Source of the DNA: Erythrobacter sp.
Lineage (GTDB): Bacteria > Pseudomonadota > Alphaproteobacteria > Sphingomonadales > Sphingomonadaceae
Direction: 5' to 3'
NCBI RefSeq assembly: GCF_030066995.1
Contig: NZ_JASJAP010000007.1
Coordinates: 1-64,000 of the forward strand
DNA: 64,000 bases
Shown: piece after piece, positions 38,275 to 39,714 of the stretch
Layout: each line of letters opens with the position of its first letter
Numbering within the stretch: the first letter of the stretch is position 1
The notes under the pieces: generated by a model
What the model was told of the DNA's origin: nothing
Seen by the model: only the letters and a program-made list of their open reading frames with translations
The model's database searches: none
Position numbers and translations under genes: made by a program

Positions 38275-38302
38275 GGGCGATCAACCGGGCGTCGAGACTG
38301 GA

Positions 38303-38337
38303 AACGCCGTTCGCATTTGGGTGCGGACGGCGTTTTT
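38303..38337 (+). terminator. Terminator after the SDR gene
   Basis: AACGCCGTTCGCA pairs with TGCGGACGGCGTT (one mismatch) around a TTTGGG loop, followed by a TTTT run. It closes the thiolase-SDR transcription unit. Confidence 0.85.
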
Positions 38338-38424
38338 TCGTGGTCCGACAGGGCGGCGATGAGGTGGATAGCTGCCTAACCGCTTTCAGATGGCAGGACG
38401 AGATCTATATCGGAAAGGTATTCT

Positions 38425-38625
38425 TCAATCTTTGCTTTCCCGCACGACCTTGCGCGCGATGGACAAAAGATTCTTGTGCCAGCGCACGTCCGAGGGTGTT
38501 GAAGGGCAAACGATCACGCCCTGCGCACAGGCGATCTTCAAATGCTTCCCGCCATACCTGATCTGGAGTACTTGCAATCCGGCGGACTTGCAGAGGCGAA
38601 CGCACTCACGTTCATGCTTTGTCAT
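38425..38625 (-). CDS. Small HicA-like hypothetical protein, 66 residues
   Basis: Small basic protein (MTKHERECVRLCKSAGLQVL..). The predicted order, one helix, then three short strands, then a helix, with GGKHLKI in the second strand, resembles the dsRNA-binding-like fold of HicA toxins (where GSHH lies at this place); this is inference. The VCPSTPSDVRWHKN segment is a pattern seen in uncharacterised small proteins of mobile elements. It starts 16 bases after the RAMA-like gene ends, on the same strand, so the two probably form an operon. The sequence is AT-richer than the flanks. Confidence 0.6.
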   Translation of the reverse strand: MTKHERECVRLCKSAGLQVLQIRYGGKHLKIACAQGVIVCPSTPSDVRWHKNLLSIARKVVRESKD

Positions 38626-38641
38626 TTCTCGATCCTTCGGC

Positions 38642-39199
38642 TTAGAGATTGACTTTAATAGACTTCAGATAGTTTTCACGCAGCAACGCCGCAGGCTGCC
38701 AAACGCTTTCACCTGGAAACCTGAACCAAAGGTCACGCCAGGCATTGCGTGAGGTGCCACCCGCTACTTTCGAGGCGTATTCCGACGGGGAGTACGCACC
38801 GCTATCATCCTTGATCGCGCCATCAATGACCTTGGCGTAATACTGCGTCCCGCCGTAAGTCATGCGAACGTCCGCTCCGGAAGGAACGGTCACATACTTC
38901 CACACCAACGGGCGATTCCCTTCGCGCCGTGCCTTGGCCGCTGCTTCGTCCTGTTGATCCCAGTATTCGAGAACCTGCGGGTAAAACTCAGCAGCGAAAT
39001 CTTCCATACGTTCGTCGAACATGGCCATGAAGCCGTCGCTCGCCCAACCACCGCCGAAGCACTCAGAGCTGAAGTTGTGCTCGATCCAAGCCTCAAGCCG
39101 CGACACAGCCCACTCGACCGGATCGCACTTTCCGTCGGAGAAGCGGATCAGGTCGTCATAGAGCTTCCGGGGGAAGGGGACATAAATAGTTTCAGGCAT
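38642..39199 (-). CDS. Protein with possible RHH N-terminus and RAMA-like C-terminus
   Basis: Protein of 185 residues. The start (MPETIYVPFPRKLYDDLIRF, then DPVEWAVSRLEAWIEHN) reads as strand-helix-helix, as in ribbon-helix-helix DNA-binding proteins. The C-terminal half (PSGADVRMTYGGTQYYAKVI, GAYSPSEYASKVAGGTSRN, AWRDLWFRF) resembles the RAMA/DUF4357-type domain often found with restriction-modification enzymes. Both calls come from pattern only. The ATG at 39199 follows GGGAG; an upstream extension to 39265 is unlikely. It precedes the HicA-like gene in a probable two-gene operon placed within the acyl-CoA cluster, consistent with acquisition by transfer. Confidence 0.65.
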   Translation of the reverse strand: MPETIYVPFPRKLYDDLIRFSDGKCDPVEWAVSRLEAWIEHNFSSECFGGGWASDGFMAMFDERMEDFAAEFYPQVLEYWDQQDEAAAKARREGNRPLVWKYVTVPSGADVRMTYGGTQYYAKVIDGAIKDDSGAYSPSEYASKVAGGTSRNAWRDLWFRFPGESVWQPAALLRENYLKSIKVNL

Positions 39200-39714
39200 T
39201 GTTAGGGCTCCCGATTGCCGTTTTAGCGATAAACAGTCTATGGGCCAAATCGCCAATTTTAGCAAGATGTTTTTTCAAATAGCTAGTTATAGTCTATATG
39301 GTGTGCCTGGGCTGTCATGCGAATGATGCCTGTCCATCGCGGTTCTGATGCTATAAACAGCTAATGAAGGCGACAGCTGCCTCTCGGCAGGTCGCTGCGG
39401 GAAGGAAGAGATTTCCAGATTTCTCCCTCACGGTGCCGTATGGACGCGCGACCGCTTTGAGGAAAACGCGGGCGGAAACCGAACGTCTGACTTTAGGGTC
39501 GTAAGCGGACGGCGATCATTTCCTACTCTGAGCTACCATACTATTCGGAGCGCATGCGCATCAGGCATCCGTTTCTCGCGAAAAGCTCATCTGCATCGAC
39601 ATTCCCCAGCGCCGCTGAAAGGCAATTGAGCGAATGAGCAGTTTTCTTGGCCTGGACAGTGTGTCAGGTGTGTCAGGCGTTGCTCAGCTGCGATGAACCG
39701 ATGAGAGGACTACC
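39200..39714. other. Non-coding gap with palindromes and repeats upstream of the RAMA-like gene
   Basis: 515 bases with no recognisable gene, clearly more AT-rich near 39200-39370. It has a perfect TATAG-T-CTATA palindrome (39288-39298), AGTCTAT at 39235 and 39291, and ATAAACAG at 39229-39236 and 39353-39360. These could be operators of the divergent or minus-strand genes. Near 39658-39680 GTGTCAGG occurs twice. The right end holds the start region of the enoyl-CoA hydratase with a GAGAGGA ribosome site. Confidence 0.55.

Follow-up and report, generated by a model that had tools for sequence, protein, structure and literature searches.

A stretch of 64,000 nucleotides from Erythrobacter sp. 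(contig NZ_JASJAP010000007.1; hereafter the window) carries an inserted pair of genes that probably forms a type II toxin-antitoxin-like module, with gene 1 as antitoxin and autorepressor and gene 2 as a HicA-type, RNA-targeting toxin (Table 1). The genes, their insertion, the RAMA fold of the gene 1 protein (P0001), the diversity of partners among its relatives and the enrichment of an upstream motif were established directly. In the proposed mechanism, the two-gene module was probably acquired horizontally. Gene 1 would encode a DNA-binding protein ending in a RAMA domain. Most likely, this protein uses an AATAG/CTATT-type operator to repress its own promoter and also binds and neutralises the product of gene 2 (P0002), a 66-residue protein of HicA fold whose free form would most likely attack RNA. 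Members of the wider family are coupled to unrelated toxins, in two-gene forms with HicA-like, PIN or DUF4258-like partners and in three-gene forms with HicA-HicB, RelE-HTH or MazE-MazF; in the three-gene forms, the RAMA protein would act as a regulator. The RAMA domain may serve as an extra DNA contact, as a toxin-binding surface or as a sensor.

Table 1. Features of the two-gene module and its surroundings, in window positions.
Feature	Position	Strand	Description
Inserted segment, outer limits	38275..39640	none	Limits from spacer comparison and a 34-base match starting at 39641
Gene 2 (P0002)	38425..38625	-	Intact 66-aa ORF; HicA-like fold, GGKH and TPSDxRW motifs; predicted probable toxin (RNase)
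Intergenic gap, gene 1/gene 2	38626..38641	-	16 bases
Gene 1 (P0001)	38642..39199	-	Intact 185-aa ORF; C-terminal RAMA domain; predicted probable antitoxin and autoregulator
Candidate operator	39278..39299	-	ACTAT at 39289-39293, CTATT at 39278-39282; bases checked in the window
Promoter-like ATGACA-16-TAGACT	39291..39318	-	1 found in the region; shuffle mean 0.8

A recurring RAMA gene with exchangeable partners

Gene 1 has seven close relatives (L003, L012, L013, L014, L015, L017 and L018), which together with the window make up group A. Six are full-length at 38–48% identity, and the seventh, L018, is at 27%. In all eight group A loci, a small ORF on the same strand directly follows the RAMA gene, and in four of them (the window, L012 from Rhodobacteraceae, L015 from Mesorhizobium, and L017) this ORF is P0002-like. 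The same pair in the same order is found at four loci of four families, with gene 1 44–48% and gene 2 34–47% identical to the window. Because the pair recurs in three of the seven close relatives, the two genes cannot be called rarely adjacent, and recurrence beyond chance is borne out by the seven relatives of gene 1 and by gene 2 relatives at the same position in three other loci. The two genes overlap in L012, L015 and L017; the RAMA gene also overlaps the next gene in L018, L002, L004, L005 and L006. In favour of a joint module, two (the window and L017) of the three genomes with a gene 2 match, out of 240 of the class, have a RAMA gene beside it; the third, L090, does not.

The remaining group A loci have other partners. 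The gene following the RAMA gene encodes a PIN protein in L014 (Pfam E 1.5e-13), a DUF4258-like protein in L003 (0.0013, under the Pfam cut-off) and a weakly DUF4258-like protein in L018 (0.096). The next ORF in L013 (49 aa) had no Pfam match, and its likeness to the DUF4258-like partners was seen by eye only. Inspection of the downstream side by eye revealed no further antitoxin gene in the window, L012, L014 or L015, and the list of downstream ORFs is empty for L017.

For group B, the sister group, and more distant relatives, the downstream side could be read at 22 loci. In L006 and in L002, the latter in the window’s own genome, the next genes are HicA and then HicB (in L002, HicA at 4.2e-15 and a 74-aa HicB). 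Gp49/RelE followed by an HI1420-type antidote is found in L005 (1.9e-8 for Gp49/RelE) and L027. The next gene is HigB in L004 (6.8e-16), and MazE and MazF (PemK) follow the RAMA gene in L031. In L040 and L023, possible defence pairs, the RAMA gene lies directly before an HNH endonuclease gene and a gene for a 403-aa HEPN_Swt1-like protein (1.3e-5, 25.8 bits, under the 27.5 cut-off), respectively. No recognised toxin lies beside the RAMA gene in the other 14 of the 22 loci (L028, L034, L038, L039 and L046–L055), where the next ORFs were judged mostly by eye and from the gene table rather than by profile; this counts against the toxin-antitoxin reading. A further family protein of 147 aa near a contig end (L021), with no ORF of at least 45 aa in the next 300 bases, was not counted among the 22. 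Also set aside were RAMA matches that fall within large proteins (L007, L008, L019, L029, L030, L045 and L091) and weak matches (L041–L043 and L093 on the RAMA side; L010 and L011 for gene 2).

On the basis of this survey of next genes, the group B RAMA protein is often encoded ahead of a toxin-antitoxin pair that is already complete, making a third component, or stands alone, while in group A loci the RAMA protein would be the sole candidate antitoxin. The partners found among relatives (HicA-like, PIN, HicA-HicB, HigB, RelE-HTH and MazE-MazF) support the original prediction of a toxin-antitoxin layout. The one direct case of partner swapping is that of L005 and L006, whose RAMA proteins share 75% identity over 143 aa: the first has RelE-HTH as its partner and the second HicA-HicB. 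Both RAMA genes lie behind a gene read by eye as uvrB, as do those of L002, L004 and L027; the 3' side of this gene in this bacterial family holds RAMA genes with three kinds of toxin and appears to be a swapping site. A tree of the family gives full support only to the split between groups A and B, with two further groupings weaker and 11 of 14 inner branches open, so the order of partner changes is not given by the tree.

Two other family loci were seen close to home. L002 (G000:C2:171474-172442) is a second module of the family in the window’s genome, with an RHH-like/RAMA protein, HicA and HicB behind the uvrB-like gene; its HicB lacks the length for the C-terminal DNA-binding part that HicB usually has. 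The HicA of L002, adjoining this second RAMA-family protein, is the only one above the Pfam cut-off in that genome. In L028, from the same genus, the gene of an orphan RAMA protein whose N-terminus is SeqA-like is flanked by genes read as ilvN and ilvC and follows a series of TACTATT-like repeats.

Mobile elements gave few relatives of gene 1. Searches of IMG/VR with P0001, with group profile A2 or with P0002 alone found no close relative; the sister-group profile found one orphan relative there (L034). Searches of phages by tblastn with P0001, P0002, the L034 protein and the Mesorhizobium gene 2 gave no match. Among plasmids, tblastn gave one partial match each for P0001 and the Mesorhizobium gene 1, in the same Rhizobium record, and none for P0002 or the Mesorhizobium gene 2. 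The sister-group protein of L004 matched nine plasmid records, and no toxin gene was recognised beside the RAMA gene in any of them, judging from gene tables and also from ORFs by eye because the PLSDB gene tables are incomplete.

The gene 1 protein ends in a RAMA domain

In an AlphaFold2 model built from six sequences, P0001 consists of two N-terminal helices, a helical middle and a C-terminal RAMA domain at about residues 99–181. Mean pLDDT is 72.7, rising to 82–93 in the ten-residue blocks of residues 101–180. For residues 99–181, the RAMA domains of MPND (Z 8.4 and 8.3) and CcrM (Z 8.1) take the top three VIA structure rows, spanning 74–78 residues, and the next row reaches only Z 5.5. Foldseek alone ranked CcrM first, at E 0.17. 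By sequence, P0001 matches Pfam RAMA (PF18755) at E 0.075 and 13.4 bits, below the gathering score of 35.2 bits, while matches at E up to 1 were obtained for 13 of the 17 proteins in the family, the best at 1.8e-7. The modelled fold and the matches across the family agree, and the call of a C-terminal RAMA domain, originally made by eye, stands.

The N-terminus was originally read as a ribbon-helix-helix (RHH) domain. In the model, an extended start is followed by helices at residues 11–20 and 27–44, arranged as in an RHH monomer, at pLDDT 54–70. A Pfam search with the N-termini of the eight group A proteins at E up to 5 matched no family for any of them (0/8), and a PDB profile search gave no RHH protein among its rows. 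In group B, the N-terminus matches that of SeqA (E 0.0036); across the 17-member family, Pfam SeqA_N matches four members and VAPB_antitox matches four. The N-terminal domain of SeqA is an RHH-type dimer domain. Groups A and B join by profile over the RAMA part only (probability 95.8%), and a profile-profile comparison of their N-termini gave a probability of 0.7% and no join. An RHH-type N-terminus is supported in the sister group; for P0001, in which no profile found one, the original call does not stand, and an RHH domain is plausible from the alignment.

The gene 2 protein and the case for a HicA-like toxin

The model of P0002 (pLDDT 86) consists of a helix, three strands and a helix, matching the helix-strands-helix pattern read from its sequence. 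In a VIA realignment of the 995 best Foldseek chains, the best row is HicA of Streptococcus pneumoniae, from complex 5yrz (Z 5.2, rmsd 2.8, 55 residues), and further HicA rows come from 6g26 (4.6), 4p78 (4.2), 6hpb (3.7) and 4c26 (3.5). Since unrelated chains in the same list reach Z 4.8 and 4.6, the match is suggestive of a HicA-like fold. Foldseek alone gave nothing at E 0.001 or better; ribosome-bound YfiA is among its leading rows, and HicA first appears at rank 29 (E 0.47).

Sequence comparisons gave a similarly divided picture. The PADLOC “HicA-like” profile matches all four gene 2 members tested, with the best value, 2.9e-4, for P0002 of the window. Pfam HicA (PF07927) did not match P0002 at E up to 10, the gene 2 profile did not find HicA among PDB sequences, and hhalign of gene 2 with two HicAs from the analysed loci gave a probability of 1.3%, with few sequences on each side. 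Five residues are invariant across seven gene 2 members (His28, Thr43, Pro44, Arg48 and Asn52), and in a joint alignment His28 of P0002 aligns with the His of GSH in two Pfam-level HicAs. The conserved His of HicA is catalytic. The best VIA row, the PADLOC profile and the invariant His support the original prediction of a HicA-like protein; Pfam, hhalign and the Foldseek ranking do not. In HicAB systems, HicB adjoins HicA; here, the first 199 bases after gene 2 contain no start of a same-strand ORF of at least 35 aa, and an 82-aa ORF at +200 is antisense within the dehydrogenase gene.

If these likenesses mislead, gene 1 might do no more than regulate by binding DNA, perhaps having come from a transposon or phage, and gene 2 might encode a small helper that binds RNA or DNA and is not a toxin. 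Several observations are consistent with such a role. Two gene 2 relatives were found in IMG/VR, in viral contigs L086 and L087; these and the ORF in L090 keep the TPSDxR motif, and no RAMA gene is among the listed same-strand ORFs around any of the three. Two phage families of unknown function, phrog_2089 and phrog_2053, match four of four bacterial gene 2 members at E up to 1. In addition to the His, the gene 2 family keeps an invariant Thr-Pro, Arg and Asn of its own, and RAMA, which partly matches DUF2924, has been recorded as a transposon-encoded DNA-binding domain (PMC11342252). Against this reading stand the sibling loci, where members of known toxin families (PIN, HicA, HigB, RelE or MazEF) occupy the position of gene 2, and the HicA toxin as the best VIA row; a helper role is rather unlikely. 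Gene 2-like proteins may be a HicA-fold family of their own in phages.

An upstream motif consistent with autorepression

The 100 bases upstream of the RAMA genes bear on the proposed autorepression by gene 1. The motif AATAG/CTATT, chosen after inspection of the upstream regions, occurs there in 26 copies and at 15 of 23 loci, figures that none of 1000 dinucleotide shuffles reaches. When corrected for the choice of the best 5-mer, one (copies) and two (loci) of 1000 shuffles reach them. The 23 loci are those of group A and 15 of group B (L002, L004, L005, L006, L023, L027, L028, L031, L034, L038, L039 and L046–L049); L021, L040 and L050–L055 were left out. Taken alone with the same correction, group A is marginal (60 and 52 of 1000 shuffles), and for group B the figures are 2 and 32 of 1000, with ACTAT the best 5-mer by copies and AAAAT by loci.

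Control regions contain the motif less often. Two copies were found 300–400 bases upstream in 16 loci, and 8.2% of 134 other upstream regions, 35 of which were drawn from related hydratase loci, contain it. The share rises with base composition, to 17.1% of the 35 control regions with at least 45% A+T and 25% of the 16 with at least 50%. Against the 16 most A+T-rich controls, random sets match the copies of group A in 747 of 20000 draws and those of group B in 463 of 20000. Some ACTAT copies may be part of a −10 box. Promoter and terminator scans found no more than shuffles, and repeats upstream of gene 1 are short and few. The shared upstream motif is in keeping with an autorepressor role for gene 1 and suggests similar binding sites for groups A and B, despite N-termini that have no profile link.

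The RAMA domain raises the question of DNA methylation. A candidate mechanism in which gene 1 senses methylation at its own promoter through CcrM-type sites went unsupported: GANTC occurs 13 times in 17 upstream regions of 200 bases, against 12.3 expected, and is absent from that of the window. We consider it unlikely that the family is one of promiscuous regulators, with a SeqA-like N-terminus and a RAMA domain, that couple many unrelated toxins to DNA methylation state and so gate toxin release.

A related proposal is that of a defence module, in which RAMA would read an invader’s DNA, either modified or unmodified, and so release the toxin. RAMA has been proposed as a 6mA reader and is found fused to restriction nucleases (PMC11037411), a methylation-reading role that is disputed: the methylation preference of the MPND RAMA could not be confirmed, and the CcrM RAMA touches only the DNA backbone (PMC9963953). 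Genomic neighbours are suggestive in places, with relatives lying before the HNH gene of L040 and the sub-threshold HEPN-like gene of L023, one relative adjoining an N-6 DNA methylase on a plasmid, and proteins named by eye as GmrSD-like, with a C-terminal RAMA, in L007 and L008. Given that GANTC is not enriched near the promoters and that no other defence gene was seen by eye among the ORFs of 34–44 kb, a defence role is quite unlikely.

The gene pair is an insertion

The toxin-antitoxin-like module lies in the spacer between a short-chain dehydrogenase gene and an enoyl-CoA hydratase gene, both named by eye. The spacer (38275–39714) has a G+C content of 54.7%, and the two flanking genes have 64.2% and 64.3%, in agreement with the original description of two intact, co-directional genes 16 bases apart in an AT-richer segment. 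Bases 39200–39714 hold only the upstream region and the remainder of the spacer, with neither gene of the pair. The hydratase gene is present in 39 of 41 genomes of the genus, and 30 places with this gene were compared, the window’s own included. Among the 29 others, the spacer measures 103–345 bp in 10 and 872–1246 bp in four, compared with 1440 bp in the window; in the remaining 15, the dehydrogenase lies beyond the stretch examined and they give no spacer length. From window position 39641, 34 bases match the spacer found in three relatives, at 79–82% identity.

Neither P0001 nor P0002 is found in any of the 29 stretches. Because these stretches lack both proteins, and the 14 spacers measured are shorter or hold other ORFs, the two-gene island is an insertion. 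The four longer spacers (L069, L075, L078 and L082) contain two alike ORFs of 291–323 aa, one cytochrome-c-like ORF (by eye) and one unknown ORF, and from these loci the dehydrogenase-hydratase spacer is read as insertion-prone. That the island is a decaying insertion of small genes unrelated to each other and with no shared function, as the other ORFs taken up by the same spacer and the absence of the pair from the other genomes of the genus examined (six by search, plus the 29 stretches) might allow, is very improbable and already disfavoured by the conserved pairing: each ORF is intact, and the pair recurs with unchanged gene order across four families.

Comparison with known systems

No description of a RAMA-domain antitoxin or regulator of a toxin operon was found in the open-licence PMC literature, as far as its accessible text extends; such a role seems to be unrecorded there, and the toxin-antitoxin function of the module is a prediction. 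RAMA is debated as a reader of adenine methylation. For its role in bacteria outside methyltransferases and nucleases, a RAMA protein encoded where several different toxin operons have their antitoxin would offer small two-gene systems suited to direct tests. The C-terminal 80 residues of P0001 share the fold of the CcrM and MPND RAMA domains. One difference is that the RAMA domain of P0001 is joined to a short DNA-binding-like N-terminus rather than to a methyltransferase or an MPN protein, and another is that it is encoded in a toxin-antitoxin-like operon.

The module has parallels with HicAB in its small partner, with a helix, three strands, a helix and a conserved His, and in the L002 sibling of the same genome, where a Pfam-level HicA precedes a short HicB. 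Unlike HicAB, the window module has no HicB, its probable antitoxin is a RAMA protein encoded first, and its gene 2 falls below Pfam detection as HicA. In omega-epsilon-zeta, the gene of an RHH regulator lies ahead of a complete toxin-antitoxin pair, an order also seen in L002, L005, L006, L027 and L031; those loci differ in their toxins and in the additional RAMA domain, and the window module has only two genes.

Swapping of partners is known among type II toxin-antitoxin systems, most notably in Panacea (PMC10440598). In Panacea, one antitoxin domain, PanA, adjoins many unrelated toxins and has a hypothesised sensor role, as proposed here for RAMA among other functions; the domain is a different one, and the word RAMA is absent from the main text of that report (PMC10440598). 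Alongside Panacea, the gene 1 family is a further candidate for an antitoxin scaffold with exchangeable toxins.
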